A stretch of DNA of 64,000 nt, taken from positions 3,299,501-3,363,500 of the forward strand of contig NZ_OY821667.1 in the NCBI RefSeq assembly GCF_963682185.1, written 5' to 3'. The notes beneath the pieces were generated by a model that saw only the letters and a program-made list of their open reading frames with translations, did no database searches and was not told the DNA's origin. The stretch is from an uncultured Cohaesibacter sp. (GTDB taxonomy: Bacteria > Pseudomonadota > Alphaproteobacteria > Rhizobiales > Cohaesibacteraceae). This document shows, piece by piece, positions 2,655 through 58,059 of the stretch. Both the position numbers and the translations under genes were made by a program. Each line of letters starts with the position of its first letter. Position 1 is the first letter of the stretch.

Positions 2655-3491
2655 GTAGATTGGAGCGCACGAAACCGCCAAATACTGCCTATTTTATCGA
2701 TGTGGGTCCAGCGCTTCATGTTTTGCTCATGCCCTCGTGGTTGCAATTTAGGAGCTAGCAGCACTGTCAAAAACCGTGTCGTTACTCTAACGAAAATGTG
2801 ATTCGATGCTCGATTCGATTGGTTGATCTGCCTGATTGCTCCCTCGTTCTTGTGGTTGGACATTGTGAGATATGCTGATATGGGGCCATTTTTCTGTGCA
2901 GAAATGGGGTATTTGCACCGAAAGAAAGCGGTGTTTTGTGTAGATATATATAAAAATATTTCCAATATTTTCCAATTCTGTCCAAATATAAATTCACGTA
3001 AAAATTGAATAATTTAATCCTTTAGTAATATATATTGACAAAATCCTAATTTGATTAGGAAGAACATAAAATATCCAAATTTTAAAAATTGTACGAAATA
3101 TAATTGATGTGAAATACTTAATAAATAGAATTTAAAATATAAAAATAAGTTAATAGTTATTAGTATTAATTAATTTAGCAGACTTATATGTAGTATATAT
3201 ATGTTTTAACGAAAATTAATTAGTATTAAATACTAAAAAAATTAAAATATATAATATATAATGGTAAAATAATTAAAATATACCAGAACAACAAATGTTT
3301 TATATTGACATAAAAATATTATACGTAAAATTTAAAAAAAATATAGTTAAAAATAGGAAATTGTAATTATATTGCGCTAAATTTTGATAGAATAGTTACC
3401 GTCACTTTTTGCTAGGCAAAAGATTCCGAGCCCATTGCAGATTTTTCCTAGAAAAGGTCAGAAAGAAACTGAAAAAAAACTTATAGTTACA
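2655..3491. other. Long non-coding spacer with an extremely AT-rich core (about 2945-3400)
   Basis: I see no credible gene here. From about 2945 to 3400 the DNA is almost only A and T, with many short A and T tracts, which is quite unlike the flanking coding DNA. TTTCCTA or its complement TAGGAAA occurs near 3353 and at 3442-3450, just before the sigma-factor promoter. Such DNA is typical of intrinsically curved or nucleoid-protein-bound promoter-upstream regions; that role is inference. Confidence 0.6.
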
Positions 3492-3517
3492 CGCCTGAAA
3501 GAGTTCGGTACAACGTT
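3492..3517 (+). promoter_or_regulatory. Predicted ECF-type promoter of the sigma-factor gene
   Basis: CGCCTGA (3492-3498), 15 nt, then CGTT (3514-3517). The same two blocks at the same spacing precede the three flagellin genes and flgD. Transcription would start near 3524, giving a leader of about 55 nt. If the adjacent sigma factor reads this element, the gene is autoregulated. Confidence 0.6.
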
Positions 3518-3579
3518 TTATTAGTAGGAAGAATTTTGTGAGGTGACTTCTTAAGCCTGAAACGTTGATGGACTGAACA

Positions 3580-4236
3580 ATGAAGAACGCAACCCTGCAA
3601 TCTGTTTCAAAATCGGACATGCCTGAGACGGTTACGACTAAGTCGCAACTATTGCAGGCACGCGATTTGGTTGCACTAAGTGATGATGAATTGCTTGGTT
3701 TGATCGCAATGGGACAGGAAGAAGCCTTTCAAGCACTCGTTGAGCGTCATATTGATCGTGGCTATGCGGTTGCTTATCGTATCTTGCAAGATGGTCCTGA
3801 GGCTGAAGATGTTCTACAGGATTCATTCCTTCAGGTGTGGACACGCAGGGGCACTTGGAAAGCAGGGCGGGCGAAATTCTCGACCTGGCTGTTCAAGGTT
3901 GTTACCAACCGCTGCATTGATCTGTTGCGTAAAAATAGAACGTCCGCCATGGACGAACTGCCTGATCTGAAAGATGACAGTTCAAACCAGTCGGCTGTTC
4001 TGGAGATGCAGGAGGCAATTGATCTGCTCGAAGGGGCTGTAGCCCAGCTGCCGGATCAGCAGCGCATTGCGATTGTCTTTTCCTACAACGAGAATATGAG
4101 CAACAGCGAAATAGCCGAGATAATGGAAACGAGCGTATCCGCAGTGGAATCCCTGCTCAAGCGCGGGCGTCAGAAATTGCGGCAAATACTCAAGGCTCAC
4201 AGCTCGGACATACTTTCTCTGTTTACTCAGCCTTAA
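3580..4236 (+). CDS. RNA polymerase sigma-70 family (ECF) sigma factor
   Basis: A 218-residue two-domain sigma factor of extracytoplasmic-function size. Region 2 spans about residues 40-112 (AEDVLQDSFLQVW, then KFSTWLFKVVTNRCIDLLRK) and region 4 about 150-208 (LPDQQRIAIVFSY, then the helix-turn-helix SNSEIAEIMETSVSAVESLL). Regions 1.2 and 3 are absent. The ATG at 3580 has only a weak ribosome site; Met13 (3616) is an alternative. The gene is not followed by a recognisable anti-sigma gene but by flagellins. Its own upstream region and those of four flagellar operons carry one shared two-block element, so I infer it directs filament-gene transcription. The exact ECF group is not assignable by eye. 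Confidence 0.9.
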   Translation: MKNATLQSVSKSDMPETVTTKSQLLQARDLVALSDDELLGLIAMGQEEAFQALVERHIDRGYAVAYRILQDGPEAEDVLQDSFLQVWTRRGTWKAGRAKFSTWLFKVVTNRCIDLLRKNRTSAMDELPDLKDDSSNQSAVLEMQEAIDLLEGAVAQLPDQQRIAIVFSYNENMSNSEIAEIMETSVSAVESLLKRGRQKLRQILKAHSSDILSLFTQP

Positions 4237-4265
4237 GCAAATTTTCCTGCAATGTGATTTAATTT

Positions 4266-4292
4266 CGCCCGGTTTGGCTATTGGCTCTCGTT
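4266..4292 (+). promoter_or_regulatory. Predicted ECF-type promoter of flagellin gene 1
   Basis: CGCCCGG (4266-4272), 16 nt, CGTTAGA (4289-4295). It lies just after the sigma-factor stop codon and 64 nt before the flagellin start, matching the blocks found before 3580, 5921, 7594 and 11773. I see no sigma-28 (TAAA-N15-GCCGATAA) promoter here. Confidence 0.6.
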
Positions 4293-4358
4293 AGAGACAG
4301 TAGGCGCACAGTATTTATATTACTATGCGTCAGCTGCCCCGTAACGAGGAGTTTGAGC

Positions 4359-5573
4359 ATGCCTGTTATTTCCACGAATATTGCCGCCACCATAGCTGTG
4401 CGATATTTGAACCAGAGTTCTAGCCGGCTATCTGACTCTATTTCCAAACTCTCAAGTGGGTCGCGCATCAGCCAAGCATCTGATGATCCGGCTGGCCTGG
4501 CGATCGCTACGGGCATGTCCTCAGATCTTTCCAGTCTGGAACAGGCCTCTGTGAATGCGTCAAACAGTCTGGCTCTGTTGCAAACGGCGGACGGCGGAGC
4601 GGCATCGGTATCCGAAATTCTGGAGCGCATGAAAAGCCTTGCATCACAGGCAGCTTCAGGCACGGTAACCGACGATGAGCGCAGCTATATTCAAACCGAA
4701 TTTGCAGCCCTGATGGAAGAGATCGACAGCATCAGCGAAAGCACACGCTATAATGGCGTCAGTTTGCTGGATGGTTCGAGCGATTATTCCGATGATACGG
4801 TGGAAACCGCAGCCGTTTTCAATAGTGGCGTATCTGGTGGCTATAGCGCAACCGCATCGACAGAAGATGTAAGCGCCAGCTTCTCGATCAATGGCACCAA
4901 GGTAACCGTGACCAGCCTTAGTGATGGGGCCAATGCAGAGGCGTTGTCAGCACAGGATCTGGCGGATGCTATCAATGCCTCCCTGCAAGAGCAGGGTGAC
5001 TATACGGTAGCGGCTTCGGTGGATGAGAGCGGAGCGCTTGTCTTCGCAGGAGAAGCAACCGGCGCCAGCGCAACGCTTGAGATCACAAATGTGACCGGAG
5101 ATAGCGGGCTGCTCGCTGCCATGGGACTTACTGAGGGGGCGGATGTCAAGGAACGGGGCACATCGGTTGAAGCCGTGACCACCGGCGCCAACGTGGTGGT
5201 GGGCGTTTCCGGCAATGACACGATCAATCTTTCTATTCAATCCTTAACAACAGACGCTCTCGGACTGTCCGGGTTGGATCTGTCTTCAGAGGACGGAGCG
5301 GCCAAGGCCCTGTCATTGCTTGATCTGGCGGTCGGTTCTGTCGCCAGCGCGCGTGCCGAGATTGGGGCAACCATGTCTCGCTTCGAGTTTCGTTCGCAGC
5401 AAATCGACACAAGCCTTGAAAATCTCGAGGCAGCACGGTCGGCTATCATGGATGTTGATATCGCCAAAGAGATGGCGAAAATGTCTTCCGAGAGGGTGCG
5501 CGTGCAAGCCGCAGCCGCTGCAGTGGCTCAGGCCAACAAGGTGCCGCAATATCTGCTCAAGTTGCTGCAATAA
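4359..5573 (+). CDS. Flagellin (paralogue 1)
   Basis: Filament subunit, 404 residues, exported through the flagellar type III system. It has a conserved N-terminal D0/D1 helix region (MPVISTNIAATIAVRYLN, then SSGSRISQASDDPAGLAIA), a central flagellin-IN-like segment at about 165-270 and a conserved C-terminal helix ending QYLLKLLQ. I start it at 4359 because AACGAGGAG lies 7 nt upstream and the protein then begins exactly like its paralogues; an in-frame upstream extension from 4281 has no homologous sequence. It contains no cysteine, in contrast to the next two copies, and is clearly more diverged from them than they are from each other. Confidence 0.95.
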   Translation: MPVISTNIAATIAVRYLNQSSSRLSDSISKLSSGSRISQASDDPAGLAIATGMSSDLSSLEQASVNASNSLALLQTADGGAASVSEILERMKSLASQAASGTVTDDERSYIQTEFAALMEEIDSISESTRYNGVSLLDGSSDYSDDTVETAAVFNSGVSGGYSATASTEDVSASFSINGTKVTVTSLSDGANAEALSAQDLADAINASLQEQGDYTVAASVDESGALVFAGEATGASATLEITNVTGDSGLLAAMGLTEGADVKERGTSVEAVTTGANVVVGVSGNDTINLSIQSLTTDALGLSGLDLSSEDGAAKALSLLDLAVGSVASARAEIGATMSRFEFRSQQIDTSLENLEAARSAIMDVDIAKEMAKMSSERVRVQAAAAAVAQANKVPQYLLKLLQ

Positions 5574-5668
5574 AGTCTTGTAGGAAGTCGCTCCTGCCTC
5601 TGTGATATTGCAATATGCAATGCGAAAAGAAATTAATGAAAATGGTGTTTACCAAGTATAGTTGCGCG

Positions 5669-5684
5669 TTAGTATTTTCTTAAC
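5669..5684. promoter_or_regulatory. CtrA-like half-consensus site
   Basis: TTAG, 7 nt, TTAAC resembles the alphaproteobacterial CtrA site TTAA-N7-TTAAC with one mismatch. It lies in the AT-rich spacer upstream of flagellin 2, where chance matches are easy. Confidence 0.25.
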
Positions 5685-5774
5685 CATGACAAATTTGTAC
5701 ATAGCCGCTTATATTTAGCCATTTTCCTCTGTTCGCGGGGCTTTTTGAAATCAGTGCGGCCTAAATGTTTATGG

Positions 5775-5789
5775 TTAACAATCAATTAA
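5775..5789. promoter_or_regulatory. CtrA-like site TTAA-N7-TTAA
   Basis: TTAA (5775-5778) and TTAA (5786-5789) are separated by 7 nt, which is the full CtrA consensus core. It lies 30 nt before the predicted -35 block of flagellin 2. CtrA controls motility genes in many alphaproteobacteria. The local AT-richness makes chance occurrence quite possible. Confidence 0.35.
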
Positions 5790-5818
5790 GTCGTTTAAAA
5801 ATAAATTAAAATAAATCT

Positions 5819-5845
5819 CGCCCGGTTTGCGGCGCCTGACCCGTT
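5819..5845 (+). promoter_or_regulatory. Predicted ECF-type promoter of flagellin gene 2
   Basis: CGCCCGG (5819-5825), 16 nt, CGTTACA (5842-5848). This is the best match in the family. The second block and the nucleotides before it (TGACCCGTTACA) are also shared with flagellin 3 (TGACTCCGTTACA). The start codon is 76 nt downstream. Confidence 0.6.
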
Positions 5846-5920
5846 ACATGTTTAAAGCGTGAAATATCGCATGTATTGGCACTGTTTAGTGAAGCCATTT
5901 TTTAGAGTCAGGATCGTACC

Positions 5921-7138
5921 ATGCCAGTAATCTCAACCAACACTGCTGCCAATACGGCAGTCCGCTACTTGAACATCAACTCAGACGACCAATCCAATTC
6001 GTTGGCCAAACTGGCCAGTGGGTCTGCCATTAACAAAGCGTCCGATGATGCGGCGGGTCTGGCTATCTCCACCAAGATTGGTACCGACGTTGCCGCCCTT
6101 GAGCAGGCATCAACCAACGCCTCCCACGCTGTGTCCGTTCTCTCTACCGCTGACGGTGGCGCATCCAACATTTCCGATATCGTCGAACGTATGAAGACCC
6201 TGGCGTCTCAATCCGCTTCCGGTACGGTGACTGACACGGAACGTGCCTACATCCAGGCTGAATTTGAAGAGCTACAGGACGAAATTGACGGCATCTGCGA
6301 ATCCACCCGCTACAACGGCCAGAGCCTGCTCGATGGGTCCAGTGATTTCGCGGTGGATGACACAACGACGGCAGCAGAGTTTGATACAGGATCGGCTGCA
6401 GGCCTTACCGCTCAAGCTTCTACCACAGATTTGACAGCCACCTTTACATTGAATGATGTTGAAATCACCATTTCGACTGAGACCGATGGGACTAATACAG
6501 CCGCACTGACAGCGCAAGAGCTTGCCGATACGATTAATGAGCAGCTTCAAGACGATGGCAATTACCAGATTGAAGCTTCGGTTGACGCCACATCAGGTAA
6601 TCTGGTTATTACGTCTCTTGCAACCGGCGACAATGCTGAAATCACGATCGAGGATACGGCCGGCAGCGCGGCAATACTGACCGCTTTGAACCTCGCAGCT
6701 GGCGTGGACTCAAGTGCGTCGGGCACGACCACCGAAGTCGACACCACTGGTGCTGAAATCGTTGTTGGTTCCACTTCTGCCGACACCATCAACCTTTCCA
6801 TCTCCACGTTGACATGCGAAGCACTGGGTATTGATGAACTCGATGTCTCTACCGAAGAAGGCGCTGCCGAAGCTCTGTCGATTCTGGATATGGCGATTGA
6901 TACAATTTCAGCGGCTCGCGCAGAAATGGGCGCAGAAATGTCACGTTTCGAGTTCCGCTCTGCCCAGATCGACACCAGCGTTGAAAACCTTGAAGCTGCT
7001 GAATCTGCAATCGCTGACGTGGACATCGCAGCTGAACAGGCAAGCTTGTCTTCTTCTTCTGTGAAGGTGCAGGCTGCCGTGGCCGCAGCAACGCAAGCCA
7101 ACGAGATGCCTCAGAACCTGCTGAGCCTTGTCCAGTAA
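5921..7138 (+). CDS. Flagellin (paralogue 2)
   Basis: Filament subunit of 405 residues with canonical N- and C-terminal helical domains (SSFDQ-type D1 region with SDDAAGLAIS; C-terminus QNLLSLVQ) and a central domain of about 165-290. It is nearly identical to paralogue 3. Its central part, DNA 6368-6756, shows no difference from 8041-8429 in the 389 nt I compared, including synonymous positions, whereas the 3' part differs more. It has two cysteines (DGICEST and LTCEALG), unusual for a filament protein. AGTCAGGATCGTACC upstream supplies AGGA as ribosome site. It has its own predicted promoter and is followed by a hairpin. Confidence 0.96.
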   Translation: MPVISTNTAANTAVRYLNINSDDQSNSLAKLASGSAINKASDDAAGLAISTKIGTDVAALEQASTNASHAVSVLSTADGGASNISDIVERMKTLASQSASGTVTDTERAYIQAEFEELQDEIDGICESTRYNGQSLLDGSSDFAVDDTTTAAEFDTGSAAGLTAQASTTDLTATFTLNDVEITISTETDGTNTAALTAQELADTINEQLQDDGNYQIEASVDATSGNLVITSLATGDNAEITIEDTAGSAAILTALNLAAGVDSSASGTTTEVDTTGAEIVVGSTSADTINLSISTLTCEALGIDELDVSTEEGAAEALSILDMAIDTISAARAEMGAEMSRFEFRSAQIDTSVENLEAAESAIADVDIAAEQASLSSSSVKVQAAVAAATQANEMPQNLLSLVQ

Positions 7139-7195
7139 TAGGATGATGAGAAGACACAATGGGCATTTCGTTCATTTGAAATTCTGAAAATCAAG

Positions 7196-7226
7196 AAGCC
7201 TCAGTCCAGAAATGGTCTGGGGCTTT
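7196..7226 (+). terminator. Probable terminator hairpin after flagellin 2
   Basis: AAGCCTCAGTCC pairs with GGTCTGGGGCTT across a 6-nt loop with one mismatch and one G-T pair. A short T run follows. It lies 57 nt after the stop codon. It is weaker than a classical terminator. Confidence 0.5.
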
Positions 7227-7488
7227 AGGCGCAAAATTCTAATCAAGCTGACAGTAGACATAGCAATGGAAAGACAAGAGGCTTCTTTCTTTACCAAGCG
7301 TTAAGCAACAATGAGCATTTCGTGAAAAGAGTAATTGGAAATTTTGAGTCAATATCTAGCGGGGAAATTAATATTTCCCGATTGGATTTCCTTGGAAAAT
7401 CGACTTCAATTATTAATAAAACGACCTGTTGCTACTTCAACTTTGTTGATGCTGCGTTAATAAGCATCCAAATTTTTGAAAATAAATC
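7227..7488. other. Spacer upstream of flagellin 3, no gene recognised
   Basis: AT-rich leader DNA between the hairpin after flagellin 2 and the flagellin 3 promoter. A TTTA-N7-TTAA sequence at 7290-7304 is a weak CtrA-like match. A 93-codon frame crossing this region runs through the promoter and into the start of flagellin 3 in another frame, and I do not accept it. Confidence 0.5.
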
Positions 7489-7489
7489 T

Positions 7490-7516
7490 TGCCTGAATTG
7501 GGCAATTGACTCCGTT
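7490..7516 (+). promoter_or_regulatory. Predicted ECF-type promoter of flagellin gene 3
   Basis: TGCCTGA (7490-7496), 16 nt, CGTTACA (7513-7519). The first block departs from CGCCYGR by one base (T for C at position 1). The start codon is 78 nt downstream, close to the distance for flagellin 2. Confidence 0.55.
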
Positions 7517-7593
7517 ACAGAAACAAGGCGCAGGAAAACGCGTCAATCCGCACTGAAAAAAACGCGGCTATCGTTTAGTACAGGAGTCCGACT

Positions 7594-8811
7594 ATGCCCG
7601 TAATTTCTACCAACACTGCAGCAAACACCGCAGTTCGTTATTTGAATTCCAACTCTGATGACCAGTCCAATTCTCTGGCAAAACTGGCCAGTGGTTCCGC
7701 CATTAACAAAGCGTCCGATGATGCGGCGGGTCTGGCTATCTCCACCAAGATTGGTACCGACGTTGCCGCCCTTGAGCAGGCATCAACCAACGCCTCCCAC
7801 GCTGTGTCCGTTCTCTCCACCGCTGATGGTGGCGCATCCAACATTGCTGACATCGTTGAACGTATGAAGACCCTGGCGTCTGAATCCGCTTCTGGTACGG
7901 TGACTGACACGGAACGCGCCTATGTACAGGCCGAATTTGAAGAACTGCAGGAAGAAATTGACGGCATCTGCGAATCCACCCGCTATAACGGCCAGAGCCT
8001 GCTCGATGGTTCCAGTGATTTCTCCGTGGATGATACGGAAACGGCAGCAGAGTTTGATACAGGATCGGCTGCAGGCCTTACCGCTCAAGCTTCTACCACA
8101 GATTTGACAGCCACCTTTACATTGAATGATGTTGAAATCACCATTTCGACTGAGACCGATGGGACTAATACAGCCGCACTGACAGCGCAAGAGCTTGCCG
8201 ATACGATTAATGAGCAGCTTCAAGACGATGGCAATTACCAGATTGAAGCTTCGGTTGACGCCACATCAGGTAATCTGGTTATTACGTCTCTTGCAACCGG
8301 CGACAATGCTGAAATCACGATCGAGGATACGGCCGGCAGCGCGGCAATACTGACCGCTTTGAACCTCGCAGCTGGCGTGGACTCAAGTGCGTCGGGCACG
8401 ACCACCGAAGTCGACACCACTGGTGCTGAGATCGTTGTTGGTTCCACTTCTGCCGATACCATCAACCTCTCCATCGATAGCCTGACCACTGAATCTTTGG
8501 GCATCGCAGATCTTGATGTATCCACTGAAGAGGGAGCTGCTGAAGCTCTGTCCGTTCTTGACCTGGCAATTGATCAGATCTCCGAAGCACGCGCCGAAAT
8601 CGGTGCAACCATGTCCCGCTTCGAGTTCCGTTCTGCCCAGATCGACACCAGCGTTGAAAACCTTGAAGCTGCACAGTCCGCAATTGCTGACGTGGACATC
8701 GCAGCAGAACAGGCAAACCTGTCTTCTTCCACTGTGAAGGTGCAGGCTGCCGTGGCCGCAGCAACTCAGGCAAACCAGATGCCTCAGAACTTGCTGAGCC
8801 TTATTCAGTAA
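7594..8811 (+). CDS. Flagellin (paralogue 3)
   Basis: Filament subunit, 405 residues, the same architecture and length as paralogue 2 and almost the same sequence. The start is fixed by ACAGGAGTCCGACT upstream. There is one cysteine (DGICEST). The differences from paralogue 2 cluster in the last third (SLTTESLGIADLDV in place of TLTCEALGIDELDV) and at synonymous sites in the first third, while the central domain is identical. This is the reverse of the usual flagellin pattern, where the surface-exposed middle diverges fastest. It is followed by a perfect hairpin and then fliD, which probably depends partly on read-through from this gene. Confidence 0.96.
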   Translation: MPVISTNTAANTAVRYLNSNSDDQSNSLAKLASGSAINKASDDAAGLAISTKIGTDVAALEQASTNASHAVSVLSTADGGASNIADIVERMKTLASESASGTVTDTERAYVQAEFEELQEEIDGICESTRYNGQSLLDGSSDFSVDDTETAAEFDTGSAAGLTAQASTTDLTATFTLNDVEITISTETDGTNTAALTAQELADTINEQLQDDGNYQIEASVDATSGNLVITSLATGDNAEITIEDTAGSAAILTALNLAAGVDSSASGTTTEVDTTGAEIVVGSTSADTINLSIDSLTTESLGIADLDVSTEEGAAEALSVLDLAIDQISEARAEIGATMSRFEFRSAQIDTSVENLEAAQSAIADVDIAAEQANLSSSTVKVQAAVAAATQANQMPQNLLSLIQ

Positions 8812-8819
8812 TGACTAGC

Positions 8820-8847
8820 GCATCAGGCCACTGGCGTGGCCTGATGC
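8820..8847 (+). terminator. Perfect 12-bp hairpin between flagellin 3 and fliD
   Basis: GCATCAGGCCAC and GTGGCCTGATGC pair perfectly around a TGGC loop. Only TTC follows, not a T tract, so it may be a partial terminator or an mRNA stability/processing element that lowers fliD expression relative to flagellin. Confidence 0.55.
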
Positions 8848-8872
8848 TTCGCCCATGATACGGAGTTGATAC

Positions 8873-10603
8873 ATGACGAGTACGACATCTACCACGACGG
8901 ATTCCTCTGGTACGACGACAAGTACAACAACGACGTCAACAACGACGACGTCATCCGGTATCAGCACGGTGAGCTCGAGCGCTGACATCGATTGGGACGC
9001 CCTGATCGAGGCTGCTGTTGCAGAGAAACAGCTTCCTGCAGACCGTATCGAAACAAAAATTGAAGAAAACGAATCCGAGATTGAAGCCTATGAGGAGATG
9101 CAGGATCTTCTCAGCACGCTTCTGGACACGGTGGAAGCCATTCGTGGCACAGATGACTCTCTGGTCGAACTGGATGATATTTTCTCTGAGCGCGAAGCCT
9201 ATCTGACGGGCATCGGCGGAGTGGAAGCCGAAGACGCGCTCGTGGTGACCTGTGAGGCGGGTGTCGCTGTTCAAACCTATGATGTTACTATCTCTCAGCT
9301 CGCGCTAGCGCAAAAGGTTACCAGTACGATTGAATGTACTGACAGCTCCGCAGACCTGGAAATTGAAGGAACTTTTACTCTCACGACGAGTGAATCTGAA
9401 GAGGACGCTGTTGAGATTGAAATAACCGAGGACATGAGCCTCGCGGAAATTGCCGAAGAAATCAATAACTACACCGATGATTCCGGTGTCACCGCCACCC
9501 TGGTTCAGGTTGATGACGATGACTATACTCTGGTACTGACTGGGGCAACTGGTGAGGACATTGTCATGACCTCGACCGATGGGACGGACGTGGGTGTTGC
9601 TCTGGGCATCGTCGACGAAGACACTGGCGAATTCTCTAGTGTGCTTCAGGAGTCTCAGGATGCGGTTTTCACTGTTGATGGCATTGAATTGTCGAGAAAC
9701 ACCAATACCATCGACGACGTTATTGATGGTGTCACCTTCGCGCTTTATGAAACCACCGATGATGGAGAGTCGATCTCTGTTGAAATCAGCCAATCGCTTT
9801 CTGATATCAAGGAAGCGGTTGTGGCATTGGTGGATGCCTATAATGCCTACCGCGAATGGGCTATCACCCAGCAGGAGACCGACGCTGACGGCGGTGCCTC
9901 GGAAGATGCCGTTTTGTTTGGCGACAGCCTGCTTCGTGGCACGAATAACGGCATTTACGCAGCGCTCTCCACAGTTCTTGATGATGAGAGCATGGCGACG
10001 CTCGGCCTTTCCTACGATGAGAATAACTATCTCGAGCTCGATGAAGATACCCTCAACGACGCACTACTCAATGATATCGACTCGATCGAAGATCTTCTGA
10101 ATTTCCAATATGACGTAAGCGACAGTGATTTGGCGCTGCTCAAACGCAACGATGATATGCCCTCCTCGTTCACACTGGATATTACCGTGGATGAAGATGG
10201 AGATGTCACCAGTGTTCTTTGTGATGGAGAGGAGGGCTGCTTCGAAGTGAGCGGCTCTCGTATCGTTGGTGTCGAGGGTACCGAATATGAGGGCATTACT
10301 TTCGTTTATACCGGGGATGAGAGTGACACCATAGAATTTTCTTGCACGGCAGGCATCGTGGAAGAGCTTTATTCTGCCGTGGCGAAATATGCCGACGAAG
10401 ACGACGGGCTTATTGTTTCCCAGATTGAGACGCTGGAAGAGCAAAACGAAGATTACGAGACCGAATATGAAGATATCATGGAGACGGTCGACGCATATGA
10501 AGAGCGTTTGACAACGCTCTATTCTGAATATCAGGCAGCCATTGAGGCGGCCGAAACAGATCTGGCCTATATCGAGGCAATCCTCAATTCTGGAGACGAC
10601 TAA
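8873..10603 (+). CDS. fliD: Flagellar filament capping protein FliD
   Basis: Hook-associated protein 2, which forms the cap under which flagellin polymerises. It has 576 residues. Residues 1-36 are almost only Thr and Ser with a few Gly, an unusual low-complexity start. A FliD N-terminal domain (about 38-140: DIDWDALIEAAVAEKQLPADRI and following) and a C-terminal FliD domain with terminal coiled coil (about 480-576) flank a strongly acidic middle. It carries five cysteines (VTCEAG, TIECTDS, LCDGEEGC, FSCTAG), odd for an external flagellar protein. ACGGAG lies 10 nt before the ATG. fliS follows after one nucleotide, so the two are translationally coupled. Confidence 0.92.
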   Translation: MTSTTSTTTDSSGTTTSTTTTSTTTTSSGISTVSSSADIDWDALIEAAVAEKQLPADRIETKIEENESEIEAYEEMQDLLSTLLDTVEAIRGTDDSLVELDDIFSEREAYLTGIGGVEAEDALVVTCEAGVAVQTYDVTISQLALAQKVTSTIECTDSSADLEIEGTFTLTTSESEEDAVEIEITEDMSLAEIAEEINNYTDDSGVTATLVQVDDDDYTLVLTGATGEDIVMTSTDGTDVGVALGIVDEDTGEFSSVLQESQDAVFTVDGIELSRNTNTIDDVIDGVTFALYETTDDGESISVEISQSLSDIKEAVVALVDAYNAYREWAITQQETDADGGASEDAVLFGDSLLRGTNNGIYAALSTVLDDESMATLGLSYDENNYLELDEDTLNDALLNDIDSIEDLLNFQYDVSDSDLALLKRNDDMPSSFTLDITVDEDGDVTSVLCDGEEGCFEVSGSRIVGVEGTEYEGITFVYTGDESDTIEFSCTAGIVEELYSAVAKYADEDDGLIVSQIETLEEQNEDYETEYEDIMETVDAYEERLTTLYSEYQAAIEAAETDLAYIEAILNSGDD

Positions 10604-10604
10604 T

Positions 10605-11057
10605 ATGAGTTATGCGCAGAACCGCGCTATTAGTGCTTATCGTGCAGCCAATACGGCAGTTCCCCCGGTCAAGGCCGTTGCAATGTTGCTTGATGAAACG
10701 TTGAACGCCATCATCCTGACGAGCTACTATCTTAAACGTAAGGAATTTGAGAATGCTTTCGGGCGCGTTGTTCACGCATCGAAAATTCTTAGTGGCTTGC
10801 GTCAGAATGTCAATCTGGATGCGGACCCTGAAATGGGGCAACAGTTTATAGACATGTATTCGAGTAATATTTTTGCCCTGCACAATGCCTATGGTAAGGA
10901 TAATGCCATTGAGCGCTATGCAAAGCTGGCAAGTGGTATTCTGGAATTTCGCAACGCTTGGGCAGAAATTGCAAGAATGCAACAACGAAGCATTGACACT
11001 GTTATGGCCGGGATCTTAGATCAGGATACGACAGACGTGACTGCAAAAGCTGGATAA
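10605..11057 (+). CDS. fliS: Flagellar export chaperone FliS
   Basis: Cytoplasmic chaperone that binds the C-terminus of flagellin and prevents premature polymerisation. It has 150 residues, slightly longer than the typical 125-135. The start YAQNRAISAYRAANTAVPPVKAVAMLLDETL follows the FliS pattern (a Tyr-rich beginning, then a helix). The ATG is one base after the fliD stop codon, and the ribosome site (CTGGAGACGA) lies inside the end of fliD. The position directly after fliD is the standard one for this gene. Confidence 0.88.
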   Translation: MSYAQNRAISAYRAANTAVPPVKAVAMLLDETLNAIILTSYYLKRKEFENAFGRVVHASKILSGLRQNVNLDADPEMGQQFIDMYSSNIFALHNAYGKDNAIERYAKLASGILEFRNAWAEIARMQQRSIDTVMAGILDQDTTDVTAKAG

Positions 11058-11109
11058 AGCTGGATGATTGGGCCTTGAGCCGTATCGTCCTTCGAATAAT
11101 AGGGCGAGC

Positions 11110-11355
11110 ATGGCCAAGTCCAATGGTGAGATGTTAATAGAGCGGTTTGAAGAACTGCTGGATCTCTATGGCCCGGATATGAAAACATGGCCGCAGGAAG
11201 AGATTGCTGCGGCCAAAGAGCTTATGAGTAAGTCAGAACTCGCTCGGACAAAATATCAGTTTGTTCTAAGCATAGCCAAGCTGGCCGACAACGCCCCGGG
11301 ACCCAAGGCTCCTGCTTCTCTCGTTGATCGGATTATGGGCAAGATAAAAAAGTAG
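11110..11355 (+). CDS. Small anti-sigma-like protein of unknown function
   Basis: 81 residues, soluble, with no signal or membrane segment. The N-terminal half (ERFEELLDLYGPDMKTWPQE) resembles, from memory, the opening of small proteins often encoded beside ECF sigma factors in alphaproteobacteria (pattern RFEALxDxYGADxxxWP). The tail KAPASLVDRIMGKIKK fits the stretch that precedes a membrane helix in those proteins, but here the protein ends. I start at the ATG at 11110; a TTG at 11068 would add 14 residues. It lies 52 nt after fliS, probably in the same transcript. A role as partner of the sigma factor encoded at 3580 is inference. Confidence 0.6.
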   Translation: MAKSNGEMLIERFEELLDLYGPDMKTWPQEEIAAAKELMSKSELARTKYQFVLSIAKLADNAPGPKAPASLVDRIMGKIKK

Positions 11356-11666
11356 CCCGGTTGCTGCGAAGCCATTTTGACCGTCCAACACTGATAAATC
11401 CTGAAGAAGACATCTTATAATATAGTCGTGGCTGGGATTTGTGTTTTGAAGTTGATCTATCATAATATTTTTTCTTTGTAATTTTGATTTTATTCTTAAG
11501 CCAAAAAAAGTGATCGAATAGATAGTTTTCAATATTTTTAATAGTAATAATTATAGATATACTATATATAATTAAGTGTAATATATTTGTATACTTAATA
11601 GGCAAAAATTTCCTATAGGAAATAAATGTTAGGCATATTTTTCCTAAATAAAAATCAAAAAAATTT
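11356..11666. other. AT-rich spacer upstream of flgD
   Basis: Contains no credible gene. The core (about 11400-11660) is very AT-rich, like the spacer before the sigma-factor gene. It includes a 16-bp perfect palindrome (11608-11623) and a further TTTTTCCTAA at 11638-11647, both using the TTTCCTA word seen near 3442. Confidence 0.55.
11608..11623. promoter_or_regulatory. Perfect 16-bp palindrome ATTTCCTATAGGAAAT
   Basis: A perfectly self-complementary 16-mer 43 nt upstream of the flgD -35 block. The half-site TTTCCTA recurs at 11640-11646 and, before the sigma-factor promoter, at 3444-3450. This is suggestive of an activator or repressor binding site for a dimeric protein; the protein is unknown. 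Confidence 0.4.
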
Positions 11667-11692
11667 CGCCTGATTCTCTGTTTTATTTCGTT
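11667..11692 (+). promoter_or_regulatory. Predicted ECF-type promoter of the flgD operon
   Basis: CGCCTGA (11667-11673), 15 nt, CGTTTCA (11689-11695). Spacing and first block are identical to the sigma-factor promoter at 3492. The start codon is 77 nt beyond the second block. Confidence 0.55.
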
Positions 11693-11772: not shown

Positions 11773-12435
11773 ATGACTGTATCTGCACTGGCGTCATCAA
11801 CTGCGACAACGACAACAACAACGACGTCTTCCAGTACTTTGGGACTGGAAACGACGGACTTCCTTCAGCTTATGGTCGAGCAATTGCAGAACCAGAATCC
11901 AACTGACCCAACCGATACGACGGAGTTTCTGGGGCAGTTGGTTCAACTTGCAAACTATGATCAACAGGTTGCCAACTCCGAGAGCCTGGAAGATGTCGTC
12001 AGTTCTCTGGACACCATGCTTTCCTCGAACGGGCTTGGCTATATTGGGCAAACTGTAACCGTCGATGGTGATACCACCACCCTGCAAGACGGATCGGCCC
12101 AATGGAACTACACGCTTGATAGCGACGCTGAAGAAGTGTCCATCAGCATCCTCGATGAGGATGGCAACACTGTTTATACCACAACTGGTGAAGTTGATGA
12201 GGGCACCTACGCCGTTGAATGGGACGGCGTTGATGACGATGGCAACCAGCTTGACGACGGTGGCATCTATACCATTGAAGTCACCGCGACGGATGCCGAC
12301 GGTGAGGAATTGGATGTGAGTACATCGGTCACCGGAACGGTAACCGGGATCGATTCCTCTAGCGATGACACATACCTTCTGATCGGTGACGTCGGTTTTA
12401 CAGTCGACGATATTACGGCGATCAGTTCCACCTGA
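11773..12435 (+). CDS. flgD: Flagellar hook assembly protein FlgD
   Basis: Hook-capping scaffold, 220 residues. After a Thr/Ser-rich N-terminus (residues 8-22), the FlgD signature lies at about 27-70 (TTDFLQLMVEQLQNQNPTDP, then TEFLGQLVQLANYDQQ). The C-terminal part has a FlgD Ig-like/FLN domain (about 85-175). It is strongly acidic. The start at 11773 has only a weak ribosome site (GAGAAAAAGCC). It heads a run of hook genes with flgE 103 nt downstream, and has a predicted ECF-type promoter. No flgB/C/F/G-type basal rod genes are in the window, so the cluster is split from the basal-body genes. Confidence 0.92.
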   Translation: MTVSALASSTATTTTTTTSSSTLGLETTDFLQLMVEQLQNQNPTDPTDTTEFLGQLVQLANYDQQVANSESLEDVVSSLDTMLSSNGLGYIGQTVTVDGDTTTLQDGSAQWNYTLDSDAEEVSISILDEDGNTVYTTTGEVDEGTYAVEWDGVDDDGNQLDDGGIYTIEVTATDADGEELDVSTSVTGTVTGIDSSSDDTYLLIGDVGFTVDDITAISST

Positions 12436-12538: not shown

Positions 12539-13843
12539 ATGAGCTTGATGGGTGCAACAAACGCCGCTGTATCGGGGCTCGCCGCGCAGTCACAGGCTTT
12601 GTCAACGGTTTCCAATAACTTGGCAAACTCTGAAACAACCGCATACAAGTCTTCAACGACCAGCTTTTCCAGTCTGGTGGCCGGTAGCGGCGCTTCGAAA
12701 AGCGGCGGGGTTTCTGCCAGCAACACGACGAACAATACGGCTCAAGGCCTGATCACCGACTCTGACATCGAAACCAATCTGGCCATTGAAGGCGATGGCT
12801 ATTTCGTGGTCTCTGAAGATGGAGATTCAACATCGCGATATTATACGCGGAATGGTGAATTCAGCACGGATGAGGACGGTTACCTAACCAATGGTGACTA
12901 TTATCTTCTTGGTTGGGCGACAGATGAAAACGGAGAGGTGTCCGGTGGTGCCAGCAGTGTGAATCTGACCAAGATCGATATTTCGTCTATTCAGAGTTCC
13001 GCCGAGGCGACCACGGAAGTTGCGATGCAGGCCACCCTGCCAGCTGATGCGGATGTAGATGACAGCTTCGAAACGAGCTTTGAAGTTTACGATTCTCTGG
13101 GAACCGCCAGCACAGTAACCGCGACCTACACGAAAGTTGACGAGAACACCTGGACCGTTTCCTATTCTGACCCGGTTTCCGCTGATGACTCCTCAACGAC
13201 AGGATCTGTAACGTCCGACACCTACACGATCTTCTTCGATTCTGATGGCAATCTCGATCACATCGAGGAAGGTGATTACGATTCGGCCACTGGCACCTCC
13301 TCAACTGGTACAACCGTTGACACCGCTTCGCTCTCCATTGACTGGAGCACGGGCGCTTCTGACAGCGATATTACTATGGATCTGGGCACCGCTGGTGGAT
13401 CGGATGGTTTGACACAATATTCTAGCAACGAGTCCGACGAAGCCGAGATTGATGTATCTTCGGTTGATGTTGATGGTCGCCCCTATGGCACCGTAGATTC
13501 CGTTGAAATCGACTCCGATGGGTCGGTTGTTGCCAGCTTCACCAATGGTGAAACGAGAACAATCTATAAGATTGCGATTGCGACCTTCACCAATGCCGAT
13601 GGGCTCACCGAAGATAGTGACGGGATCTATGCTGTCTCTAACTATTCAGGAAATGCCACGCTGCATGTGGCGGGGCAGGGGTCTGCCGGTAGTATCGAAA
13701 GCAGCTCACTGGAAGCCAGTACCGTTGATACCAGCACGGAGTTTGCCTCCATGTTGGCTGCTCAGCAGGCTTATTCCTCGGCATCACAGATCATTTCTAC
13801 CGCCAGCTCGATGTTTGATGATCTTATGAGCGCCGTACGGTGA
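12539..13843 (+). CDS. flgE: Flagellar hook protein FlgE
   Basis: Structural subunit of the hook. It has 434 residues with the conserved N-terminus (MSLMGATNAAVSGLAAQSQ, then VSNNLANSETTAYKSS), a long variable centre, and the flagellar basal body/hook C-terminal helix (EFASMLAAQQAYSSASQIIS, then MFDDLMSAVR). AGGAGAG lies 7 nt before the ATG. The middle is rich in Asp, Ser and Thr, like the other external proteins of this cluster. I see no cysteine. The distance to flgD (103 nt) has no obvious two-block promoter, so transcription from the flgD promoter is most likely. Confidence 0.93.
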   Translation: MSLMGATNAAVSGLAAQSQALSTVSNNLANSETTAYKSSTTSFSSLVAGSGASKSGGVSASNTTNNTAQGLITDSDIETNLAIEGDGYFVVSEDGDSTSRYYTRNGEFSTDEDGYLTNGDYYLLGWATDENGEVSGGASSVNLTKIDISSIQSSAEATTEVAMQATLPADADVDDSFETSFEVYDSLGTASTVTATYTKVDENTWTVSYSDPVSADDSSTTGSVTSDTYTIFFDSDGNLDHIEEGDYDSATGTSSTGTTVDTASLSIDWSTGASDSDITMDLGTAGGSDGLTQYSSNESDEAEIDVSSVDVDGRPYGTVDSVEIDSDGSVVASFTNGETRTIYKIAIATFTNADGLTEDSDGIYAVSNYSGNATLHVAGQGSAGSIESSSLEASTVDTSTEFASMLAAQQAYSSASQIISTASSMFDDLMSAVR

Positions 13844-14114: not shown

Positions 14115-14600
14115 ATGACTACGAAACTGAATACTGAAATGGTTCATTCGCAACGCGATGTCGAACGCATTGAACAGGCGATCGACAAGGCGATAAATGT
14201 GGCTGACGACCTCATCCGTATTGCAGATGAAGAAAATCAGCGTTTGGAAAGCGGCAGGCCGGCATCGCTTGATGATCTGCTGAGCCGCAAACAAAAGCTG
14301 GCGTCCGAGTTTGATGCTTTCTTCAAGGAGTTCAAAGCCGAACGCGAGGCTTTCCTCTATGCATCTGAAGAGAAATTCAACCAGCTGCAGGATCGAATCC
14401 AGATTCTTGCTCAGTCCTTCATGGAAAATGCAAGCAATCTGAATCGTGCCAAGAGCGCCAACGAGAGACGCATCAATGCCATTATGCGCGCCATCCGCGA
14501 AAATCAGGATGCCAACGCGCTCCCTGGCTATGGCTCCAAAGGTCAGGCTGCAAGTTCAGCCTACGCTGCAGGGTCACTCAAGCCACATAGGAAAGTGTAA
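14115..14600 (+). CDS. flgN: Flagellar protein FlgN-like export chaperone
   Basis: 161 residues, mainly helical with heptad-like spacing (residues 10-130). It matches the FlgN family in layout: an early helix with many charged residues, a loop around ESGRPASLDDLLSRKQKL, a long second helix, and a flexible Gly/Ala/Ser tail. FlgN keeps the hook-junction proteins FlgK and FlgL export-competent, and the gene lies directly upstream of flgK and flgL here, as in many alphaproteobacteria. The ATG follows GGGTTAGGGTGCGCC. The assignment rests on layout and position more than on invariant residues. Confidence 0.7.
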   Translation: MTTKLNTEMVHSQRDVERIEQAIDKAINVADDLIRIADEENQRLESGRPASLDDLLSRKQKLASEFDAFFKEFKAEREAFLYASEEKFNQLQDRIQILAQSFMENASNLNRAKSANERRINAIMRAIRENQDANALPGYGSKGQAASSAYAAGSLKPHRKV

Positions 14601-14722
14601 AACTGATCGAGAACATGTCTCTGGTTATGTGACGATGATGCCATCGTCTTGGCAAGGCCAGACATTCTGATTGTGCAACCTGTAACGACGTAGCCGCGTG
14701 CATGATCTGAAAGGAAAAGGTG

Positions 14723-16081
14723 ATGTCGTCTTTATCGACTGCCCGTTACATTGCATCCAGCTCACTTGCTTCAACGCAGGTGCAAGTTGCCGTAACCTCA
14801 AATAACATCGCCAATGCAGACACCGAGGGCTACACAACCAAAACGGCTTCGGTTTCTTCGTCTATTTCTGCCGGAACAGGCGCGGGTGTCTCGGTAGATA
14901 GTGTTTCCTCTTCAGTCAGCAAATATCTGGTTGAAGATTTGACAGAAGCCACGTCCGAGGCGGCCTATGCAACCACCAAGGCAGACTATTTGAGCAATCT
15001 GCAGACGTCCTTGGGGACACTCGAAGACGAGGACGGTTCGGGAACGTCGTTGGTGGATTCCATATCCGATTTCGAAGAAGCCATGACGGAGCTGGCAACC
15101 ACTCCGGAAAGTACCATTCTATCGAGCAATGCTGTCACGGCGTTGGATGAATTAACCAGCGAGATTAGCGATACTGCAGAAATGGTACAGGATCTGATCG
15201 ATGACGCAGATAGTGAAATCGAGGAATCTGTAGAGGAAGTCAATACGCTTCTGGAAAGCATTGATGCTCTGAATGAACAGATCAGAACCGCTACGGCAAG
15301 CGGCAATAGCACGTCGGATTTAGAGGATCAGTTGACAACAGCCATAGTCGAACTGTCTTCCTATATGGATGTGACGACGTTCAGTTGCGACGATGGCTCA
15401 ACTAAGGTTTATACCTCATCTGGACAGTTGCTGGTGGGATCAACCGCGCATCTTCTGACCACCGGCACAGACTCGGAGGGCCAGACAACCATTTCTGTGA
15501 ATGGCTCGGATATCACCGAACGACTAACCGGGTCAGACAGCAAGATCGGCGCTCTACTTGAACTCAGAGATGAGACGTTACCTGCCTATATGGACGATCT
15601 TGATGAGCTTGCCACCACGTTGATCGAGACCTTGAATGCAGTTGATGGTCTGGATGGTGATATTCTGACCGGGACCAGTGCTCTGGACATCTCGGTGGTA
15701 GACAGCGTCCTTGACGACCCGACCACGTTGCTGGGCTCTGATAATGCATCAACCACCGCCAACAACATCCTCGATGCCCTGCAGGGGGATGCAACTTATG
15801 ATGAGGCTGGTAATCTGGCTTCCGGGGATCGCACATTCACTGAATATGCCACGGAGATCATCTCAACAGCGGTCAATGCTTCCAACAGTGCCTCCGATGC
15901 ATTGGATGTGGCCGAAAGCGCACTTAGCTCTGCAGAAGATGCCATCAGTTCGGCCTATGGGGTGAACGTGGACGAGGAAACCGCTCGGTTAACTGAATTG
16001 GAACAGCTCTATTCACTAGCTTCGACCATTCTGAGTACGCTTCAGGAAATGTTCGAAGATCTTCAGTCGGCATTTGCATAG
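14723..16081 (+). CDS. flgK: Flagellar hook-associated protein 1 FlgK
   Basis: Hook-filament junction protein, 452 residues. The N-terminus has the family motif (SLSTARYIASSSL, then VTSNNIANADTEGYT) and the C-terminus the helical hook-associated pattern (ETARLTELEQLYSLASTIL, then TLQEMFEDLQSAFA). One cysteine (TFSCDDGS, about residue 222). I prefer the ATG at 14723 over the GTG one codon earlier because AAGGA sits at the right distance. It is shorter than enterobacterial FlgK (about 547), the difference being in the variable middle. flgL follows after 8 nt. The 122-nt gap to flgN has no clear two-block promoter. Confidence 0.92.
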   Translation: MSSLSTARYIASSSLASTQVQVAVTSNNIANADTEGYTTKTASVSSSISAGTGAGVSVDSVSSSVSKYLVEDLTEATSEAAYATTKADYLSNLQTSLGTLEDEDGSGTSLVDSISDFEEAMTELATTPESTILSSNAVTALDELTSEISDTAEMVQDLIDDADSEIEESVEEVNTLLESIDALNEQIRTATASGNSTSDLEDQLTTAIVELSSYMDVTTFSCDDGSTKVYTSSGQLLVGSTAHLLTTGTDSEGQTTISVNGSDITERLTGSDSKIGALLELRDETLPAYMDDLDELATTLIETLNAVDGLDGDILTGTSALDISVVDSVLDDPTTLLGSDNASTTANNILDALQGDATYDEAGNLASGDRTFTEYATEIISTAVNASNSASDALDVAESALSSAEDAISSAYGVNVDEETARLTELEQLYSLASTILSTLQEMFEDLQSAFA

Positions 16082-16089
16082 GTGATCAC

Positions 16090-16986
16090 ATGGCAATGCG
16101 CGTTGCTACATTCCATACAACGTCATCTCTTTTGCAGAAGACGCTTAATACTCAGGCAAAACTTGCTCAAATCCAAGAGCAGGAATCAAGTGGCCTTGTG
16201 TCTTCCGATTATGGCGGATTGGGGTCATCGGTTTCCACGGTTCTAGACCTGAGTTCCTCCATCTCAACCGCTGAGGCCAATATTTCTGCTGCTGAAACTG
16301 TTGTCAGTCGCAGTGATACATATGCTTCGGTTCTCGAGGATATTACCGATCTTCTGACCAATGCGCGCAGTGCGGTGTCTGGCACCAGTTCCGATGATGA
16401 GTTGGATGATCTGCAGGCTGAAGCCGCTGAATATCTGGAAGATCTCGTTCTGTTGCTCAATACCCAGTATAATGGCCGCTATATATTCTCGGGCAGTGAA
16501 ATTGATACTGCGGCTGTTGATATTTCGAGCTACGAGGCAACGGATTTAACCACCGTCAATACTGATTACTATCAGGGAGACGACTACACGCAGGTTATTC
16601 GGCTCGATAGCAGTACGGAAGTGGAATATGGAGTAACGGGCGATCTTGAAGGGATTGAGGAAGCGATGCGGGCGCTGTCCTATCTAGCCAATTCGACAAG
16701 CCTCACGACTGATGACCTTGATGATGTTGATGACCTGCTCGTGGATGCGCAGGATGCCTTGATTGCTGCGACGAGTAAGGCTGGCTCGGTTTCCTCACGG
16801 CTGGAAACCTATATTGAAAATGAGGAAGACTTTATTGCAACGGCACAGGAGCTTGCGACGGACATTACGTCCATTGACATCGCATCAGCAGCCGTTGAGG
16901 CAACGGCCTATGAAACCCAGCTGGAGGCAAGTTACTCCGCGCTTAGCAAAATACTGAGCTTGAGCCTGAACGATTATCTCAACTAA
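16090..16986 (+). CDS. flgL: Flagellar hook-associated protein 3 FlgL
   Basis: Second hook-filament junction protein, 298 residues, flagellin-like at both ends. The N-terminal helix (MRVATFHTTSSLLQKTLNTQ, then LAQIQEQESSGLVSSDYGG) and the C-terminal helix (SSRLETYIENEEDF, ending SALSKILSLSLNDYLN) match the family. The central part is short. It lies 8 nt downstream of flgK, the usual FlgK-FlgL pair. Met3 is a possible alternative start. After this gene the flagellar cluster ends; no flaF, flbT or motor genes follow. Confidence 0.92.
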   Translation: MAMRVATFHTTSSLLQKTLNTQAKLAQIQEQESSGLVSSDYGGLGSSVSTVLDLSSSISTAEANISAAETVVSRSDTYASVLEDITDLLTNARSAVSGTSSDDELDDLQAEAAEYLEDLVLLLNTQYNGRYIFSGSEIDTAAVDISSYEATDLTTVNTDYYQGDDYTQVIRLDSSTEVEYGVTGDLEGIEEAMRALSYLANSTSLTTDDLDDVDDLLVDAQDALIAATSKAGSVSSRLETYIENEEDFIATAQELATDITSIDIASAAVEATAYETQLEASYSALSKILSLSLNDYLN

Positions 16987-58043: not shown

Positions 58044-58059
58044 TGGCATGCGAATTGCA
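58044..58059 (+). promoter_or_regulatory. Sigma-54 promoter (-24/-12) of the ABC operon
   Basis: TGGCATG (58044-58050), 4 nt, TTGCA (58055-58059). GG and GC are exactly 10 nt apart, as RpoN requires, and 14 of 16 positions fit the consensus. Transcription should start near 58070, some 58 nt before the binding-protein start. Confidence 0.88.

Follow-up and report, generated by a model that had tools for sequence, protein, structure and literature searches.

A shared promoter-like element links an RpoE6-type ECF sigma factor to a hook-filament gene cassette in an uncultured Cohaesibacter sp.

Does an alternative sigma factor encoded at the head of a flagellar gene cluster transcribe the genes behind it? 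The question is raised by a stretch of 64,000 nucleotides (the window; contig NZ_OY821667.1, positions 3,299,501 to 3,363,500) from the 5.39 Mb genome of an uncultured member of the genus Cohaesibacter. Between 3.5 and 17 kb of the window, all on the plus strand, lie a gene for an extracytoplasmic function (ECF) sigma factor (sig), three flagellin genes, fliD, fliS, an open reading frame (ORF) of 81 amino acids (aa), flgD, flgE, a FlgN-like gene, flgK and flgL. A two-block element, YGCCYGR-N15/16-CGTT, precedes sig, the three flagellin genes and flgD. We consider it very probable that an RpoE6-type ECF factor drives its own gene and the hook-filament cassette from CGCCYGR-N15/16-CGTTNNA, and that a soluble anti-sigma factor of the Asf6 type restrains it.

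An earlier reading of this DNA, made from its letters without database searches (the sequence-only reading), had placed the element at 3492, 4266, 5819, 7490 and 11667, and all five were found exactly there, on the plus strand. Upstream of the sigma gene, the predicted ECF promoter (3492..3517) reads CGCCTGA-N15-CGTT, with CGTT at 3514-3517 followed by TTA and a predicted transcription start at about 3527. Predicted promoters of the flagellin genes read CGCCCGG-N16-CGTT then AGA (flagellin 1; 4266..4292, CGTT 4289-4292), CGCCCGG-N16-CGTT then ACA (flagellin 2; 5819..5845, CGTT 5842-5845) and TGCCTGA-N16-CGTT then ACA (flagellin 3; 7490..7516, CGTT 7513-7516); that of flgD reads CGCCTGA-N15-CGTT then TCA (11667..11692, CGTT 11689-11692). 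For these four, by the distance seen in A. brasilense, transcription is predicted to begin at about 4302, 5855, 7526 and 11702. The claimed spacing, 16 for the flagellins and 15 for the sigma gene and flgD, and the claimed trinucleotides past CGTT in the flagellar promoters (AGA, ACA, ACA, TCA) are likewise as the letters show. GCCYGR-N16-CGTT has three matches in the window against 0.6 expected and GCCYGR-N15-CGTT three against 0.5, the third of the latter lying on the minus strand at 44180; three or more were reached in 2 of 100 shuffles for either spacing.

The case for the sites comes from comparison of 93 loci: that of the window, 15 from relatives and 77 of 80 from named genomes. Three loci (L046-L048) were left out as second copies of genomes already included, as were genes lying less than 300 nt from a locus end, and groups were assigned from record titles. 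A search of related genomes for the element, proposed by the sequence-only reading as a check, gave a strict match in 267 of 300 upstream regions (78/93 for sig, 106/117 for flagellin genes and 83/90 for flgD); a relaxed form, with CGT for CGTT and any fifth base, gave 82, 106 and 85, respectively. Spacing proved gene-specific, being N15 in 78/78 sig sites, N16 in 105/106 flagellin sites and N15 in 83/83 flgD sites, and the reversed pattern was never found upstream of these three gene classes. Elsewhere in the cluster strict matches were absent upstream of fliD (0/92), fliS (0/92), the anti-sigma gene (0/92), flgK (0/90) and flgL (0/85), and single ones preceded flgE (1/90) and the FlgN-like gene (1/88). 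Match density amounts to 1.93 per kb inside the target regions against 0.036 per kb elsewhere in those loci, a 54-fold difference. Once near-identical sites had been taken out, 25 sites of sig, 41 of flagellin genes and 29 of flgD remained; in these sets an A three bases past CGTT, a position outside the search pattern, holds 1.9, 1.9 and 1.6 bits, respectively, and the spacer positions average 0.33-0.45 bits; the information content of the boxes themselves is partly inflated by selection with the search pattern.

By group, the element precedes sig, flagellin genes and flgD in 9/12, 29/36 and 12/12 cases in Cohaesibacter (window included), 8/8, 8/8 and 6/7 in Roseibium/Labrenzia, 50/56, 56/56 and 52/55 in Bradyrhizobium, and 2/7, 6/7 and 4/6 in Rhodopseudomonas. 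Pannonibacter has it in 1/1 of each class, Breoghania in 0/1, 1/1 and 1/1, and Bosea in 1/1, 0/1 and 0/1; three other named records show 1/1 per class, and four order-level genomes 4/4, 2/4 and 4/4. In 16 loci the element lies mostly 86-129 nt ahead of the start codon, the distance being 200-205 nt for four flagellin genes in two loci. Relaxed matches (CGTA for CGTT) ahead of fliD in some Cohaesibacter loci fall in or beside the flagellin-fliD hairpin and were not counted as a fliD promoter. A first control based on ORF starts (189 of 2276 with a strict match) was unusable, because spurious ORFs overlap the same promoters, and was replaced by the rate outside the target regions.

The regions 5' of two of the predicted promoters are AT-rich: G+C content is 16% in 2980-3400, ahead of the sigma promoter, and 22% in 11400-11660, ahead of the flgD promoter, with 54% for the window as a whole.

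The protein that would read these sites (sig, 3580..4236, plus strand, 218 aa) has sigma regions 2 and 4, with matches to PF04542 and PF08281, in agreement with its earlier assignment as an ECF factor. In a tree of 63 rows it groups with RpoE6 of Azospirillum brasilense and A. lipoferum (support 97/85) in a set of 24 rows, made up of all 23 flagellar-cluster sigma factors used and the long-branched L152, from a short locus with no flagellar genes. The flagellar label needs two changes on this tree, and none of 200 bootstrap trees allows only one. With 44% identity to A. brasilense RpoE6 over 177 residues, the window sigma factor is, as judged by tree and alignment, an RpoE6 orthologue. A close orthologue (72-97%) is listed in 11 of 17 same-genus genomes; among 19 genomes of the genus and family, the cluster FliD occurs in exactly those 11 sigma-bearing genomes and is absent from the remaining eight. 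Four order-level genomes, picked for a sigma orthologue of 53-57%, all have FliD. The enterobacterial FliA (sigma-28)/FlgM pair resembles this system in placing late flagellar genes under sigma/anti-sigma control; it differs in that the window has an ECF-group sigma factor, not sigma-28, and no FlgM domain. No FliA (TIGR02479) scored above the cut-off in the Cohaesibacter genome, the window sigma factor itself matching this model partially at 30.9 bits against a cut-off of 189.6, and no FlgM (PF04316) was found in 18 genomes.

The sequence-only reading regarded a dedicated ECF factor for flagellin genes as new. This claim falls to the RpoE6/Asf6 system of A. brasilense Sp7, reported in J Bacteriol in December 2025, before which, according to its abstract, no flagellum-specific sigma factor was known in Alphaproteobacteria (PMC12826043). 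There, the fliC2 start was mapped and the RpoE6-dependent promoter given as CGCCAG-N16-CGTGAG for -35 and -10, deletion of either box abolishing promoter activity; Asf6 contacts RpoE6 in a two-hybrid assay, and its loss leads to FliC2 overproduction and to thinner filaments, probably almost only of FliC2, with the polar flagellin band gone (PMC12826043). Synteny with Bradyrhizobium, Rhodopseudomonas and Magnetospirillum, with the sigma gene first in those genomes, was noted in the same work (PMC12826043). The window sigma locus shows this synteny, both with fliC-fliD-fliS and with flgD-flgE-flgK-flgL, and in A. brasilense, whose locus we placed on plasmid record NZ_CP032342.1 via the FliC2 accession in that paper, as in the window, a CGCC-type -35 and a CGT-type -10 precede a flagellin gene. 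In A. brasilense and A. lipoferum alike, a similar element lies 5' of flgD. In the open literature, covered by titles and the starts of abstracts with most subscription papers and bioRxiv outside its scope, PMC12826043 was the sole paper to deal with alphaproteobacterial flagellin control by an ECF factor. It also names RpoE10 of A. brasilense, likewise a flagellar ECF factor, reported for lateral flagella (PMC12826043). RpoE10 differs in being of the ECF41 type, with a fused regulatory extension.

The proposal of ECF promoters for filament genes therefore stands as regards the promoters, which are backed by conserved spacing and position and by likeness to a mapped Azospirillum promoter, but not as regards novelty: since RpoE6/Asf6 came first, the system is not new in mechanism. 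The new elements are the wiring through several promoters, the conservation of that wiring, the assignment of the anti-sigma factor and the view of the cluster as a cassette. The arrangements do differ. In A. brasilense, rpoE6-asf6 end a fliC2-fliD-fliS operon with one small flagellin, whereas in the window the sigma gene comes first with its own element, three flagellins of 404-405 aa each have an element, and the anti-sigma gene lies apart from the sigma gene, after fliS, rather than beside it.

This anti-sigma candidate, the 81-aa ORF at 11110..11355 (plus strand), is absent from the sequence-only reading, as are the hook genes 3' of flgD and two further hook/filament sets in the genome. 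A conserved Met8 at 11131 offers an alternative start that would yield 74 aa. A profile built from the ORF and 12 homologues matches A. brasilense Asf6 (98 aa) with an i-E of 1.5e-20 and an A. lipoferum protein with 4.5e-18, and a family member is present in 95 of 96 loci, the exception (L056) being cut short. In Bradyrhizobium and relatives the genes between fliS and flgD have been given as 'hp, hp' (PMC12826043). We regard the product as a probable soluble anti-sigma factor of the Asf6 family, on the grounds of the profile match and of its presence across the loci. No Pfam or NCBIfam family matched the ORF at 0.001; DUF3379, the best family in a Pfam scan of 22 members, was rejected, with two members at E 0.0048 only. 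An AlphaFold2 model shows four helices (mean pLDDT 83). RsiW was the best match both in a fold search (E 4.3, probability 0.25, TM 0.56) and in a profile search against PDB (E 0.83), neither being significant alone.

Within the class, 100 of 385 genomes have the domain. Among the best 29 loci besides that of the window, two have flagellar genes, and both of their proteins lack a membrane segment; of the remaining 27, 26 have an adjacent ECF gene and 24 carry a transmembrane-like segment, defined as a 19-residue hydropathy above 1.6 (these loci span a few kb, so distant flagellar genes are possible). The window protein shares the N-terminal domain with these membrane-anchored candidates beside alphaproteobacterial ECF genes but has no transmembrane-like segment by the same measure. 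Since the widespread relatives are mostly membrane-anchored, the flagellar anti-sigma factor looks like a truncated form of that family. Among the 95 flagellar-cluster members, 20 do have a C-terminal transmembrane-like segment (L061, L064, L070, L083, L101, L119 and others; 16 are from Bradyrhizobium), which disfavours export of the anti-sigma factor as a general rule.

In the proposed circuit, free sigma factor would act on its own promoter (positive feedback); autoregulation is likely, because the predicted promoter of sig carries the element too. It would also act on the flagellin promoters, from which read-through would extend by way of fliD and fliS to the anti-sigma gene (negative feedback), and on the flgD promoter, feeding the hook and junction genes. 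The Asf6-type protein encoded 3' of fliS would hold the sigma factor in check. We infer recognition of the five sites by this sigma factor in this organism, and operon read-through as far as the anti-sigma gene, from the comparisons above.

Several observations weigh against this reading. The strict element is absent from 33 of 300 target regions, among them those of 5/7 sig genes in Rhodopseudomonas, of 10/48 sig or flagellin genes in Cohaesibacter (window included) and of 2/3 genes in Bosea, and the locus counts are not independent, because 56 of the 93 loci are from Bradyrhizobium. In the Cohaesibacter genome GCCYGR-N15/16-CGTT is not enriched, with 58+46 (104) matches against 79+72 (151) for the reversed control. 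The A. brasilense flagellin promoter differs from those of the window in the fifth -35 base and in the -10 (CGTGAG), and its spacing is 15 in the numbering used here, against 16 for our flagellins; this other spacing slightly lowers our confidence. Furthermore, the region 5' of rpoE6 is not an RpoE6-dependent promoter in A. brasilense, and an in-frame mutant still swam (PMC12826043). Transcription running on towards the anti-sigma gene may be curbed by the strong hairpin that separates flagellin 3 from fliD. Finally, the promoter assignment in this organism is a prediction drawn from sequence comparison.

A tighter pattern, GCCYGRWWN13-14CGTTNNA, gave 11 matches in this genome against 13 for the control. 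Five of them are the window sites, all within 8.2 kb and each 5' of a correctly oriented gene; five of the remaining six overlap ORFs (one near an ORF start), and the sixth has no same-strand ORF (60 aa) downstream in its 3-kb locus. A wider regulon was accordingly dropped, as no convincing site was seen in this genome beyond the cluster. A scan of 18 Cohaesibacter genomes required C as the first base, at the cost of one of the five window sites. The 12 sigma-bearing genomes gave 61 matches, 45 of them in the cluster as judged from listed positions, against 45 in all for the reversed control; the six genomes lacking the sigma gene had 11 matches (control 14). Because the pattern is no commoner in the genome than its control, rarity alone is insufficient for the claim, and we regard the sites as real because they are conserved across loci.

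The alternative that survives best, though we give it little credence, is that the shared element is the binding site of an activator, such as a FlbD- or Rem-like regulator, and not a sigma promoter. A sigma-54-type activator gene does lie in a fliF-fliG-fliN-flhA cluster at 1.634-1.642 Mb, and the starts at our sites are predictions. Two boxes in one orientation, with a spacer that is variable yet fixed per gene, speak against such a site, and the similar element of A. brasilense has a mapped start (PMC12826043). A scan of the window for the sigma-54 consensus gave one match, at 58044, which is chance level, and none near the cluster.

Slightly less probable still is use of the sites by a different ECF factor whose -10 is CGTT, for example the general stress factor EcfG. 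A CGTT -10 is common to several ECF groups; the -35 of EcfG is GGAAC, unlike CGCCYGR. In all but one of 96 loci (found, it should be said, via the sigma gene), flagellin, fliD and fliS accompany that gene, and the restriction of FliD to sigma-bearing genomes of the genus and family also speaks for the local factor. Chance placement of CG-rich words close to genes is practically negligible as an explanation, for all the lack of enrichment in the genome, in view of the 54-fold excess 5' of three gene classes, the gene-specific spacing and the extra A.

Which flagellum the RpoE6-type factor would serve is a separate matter, as the genome has two FlhA and three hook and filament gene sets. Set 1 (1.00-1.02 Mb) combines two flagellins of about 500 aa with genes for rod and rings; in set 2 (3.24-3.28 Mb) a 318-aa flagellin goes with FliF, FlhA and an export ATPase; set 3 is the window cluster. 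Because of the two additional sets, the window sigma factor need not control the main filament. The flagellins at 1.009-1.015 Mb (L162:9347-15273) score 48 and 50 bits for Flagellin_N, with 120-125 in the cassette; together with a FlgL-like protein and adjoining rod, P-ring and L-ring genes they form a separate filament set.

Genes for a basal body or for export are missing from the window cluster, which is a hook-filament cassette: FliF, FlhA, FlgI and FlgG of the other sets have no relative within the 64-kb window (tblastn, E 1e-4), so the cassette must use another basal body. In Cohaesibacter, at least two FlhA matches occur in 12/12 genomes with the cassette and one each in 6/6 without it. 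The second FlhA (at 3.263 Mb in this genome) and the sigma gene are some 32-38 kb apart in 9 of the 12; since this FlhA is found only with the cassette, the latter may instead accompany a second basal body. Outside the genus, five of six cassette-bearing genomes tested have a single FlhA, and the 60-80 kb around it in those five hold no relative of flagellin, FlgE, FlgK or FlgL; one has flgD. The Asf6-loss phenotype of A. brasilense would, by analogy, fit a switch of the outer flagellum. We only tentatively raise the idea, doubtful as it is, of an accessory hook-junction-filament-cap cassette on a basal body that also serves another flagellin set, in which the ECF/anti-ECF pair switches the outer flagellum and the anchor-less anti-sigma factor is exported in FlgM-like fashion. 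Such export, if true, would mean that a FlgM-type assembly checkpoint had arisen a second time, independently.

Taken with the promoters predicted above, a single experimental case, described as control of a minor flagellin, is extended to Cohaesibacter, Roseibium, Pannonibacter, Breoghania, Bradyrhizobium and Rhodopseudomonas, and to Bosea for the element 5' of the sigma gene only. The hook genes and the sigma gene itself are added as likely targets, and a probable anti-sigma factor is named in species for which hypothetical proteins had been given (PMC12826043).

The remaining genes of the cassette, all on the plus strand, were identified mainly by Pfam matches. Flagellin 1 (4359..5573, 404 aa), flagellin 2 (5921..7138, 405 aa) and flagellin 3 (7594..8811, 405 aa, 94% identical to flagellin 2) match PF00669 and PF00700. 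They are followed by the filament cap FliD (8873..10603; PF07195, PF02465), the flagellin chaperone FliS (10605..11057; PF02561), the hook cap FlgD (11773..12435; PF13860, PF03963), the hook protein FlgE (12539..13843; PF07559, PF22692), a FlgN-like chaperone (14115..14600; PF05130, 31.9 bits against a cut-off of 30.5) and the hook-filament junction proteins FlgK (14720..16081; PF22638) and FlgL (16090..16986; PF00669, PF00700), the last named from position and synteny. Across 96 loci, flagellin, fliD, fliS and the small ORF are present in 95 each, flgD in 92, flgE in 91, the FlgN-like gene in 89, flgK in 88 and flgL in 86. Allowing for missing genes, the window gene order is kept in 94 loci, with all ten steps in 84; in L042, flgD and flgE lie on the opposite strand, ahead of sig.

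Between flagellin 3 and fliD, a perfect 12-bp RNA hairpin without a T run (8820..8847, plus strand; z -3.2) may protect flagellin mRNA or damp fliD. Single-sequence folding gave strong stems at this junction in 21 of 21 loci (window, L031-L045, L049, L054, L057, L060 and L066), with a longest paired run of 9-18 and stem sequences that differ between loci. In Azospirillum and in Hyphomicrobiales bacterium UR115, large secondary replicons carry the cassette (L156, L157 and L158 = CP131057.1).

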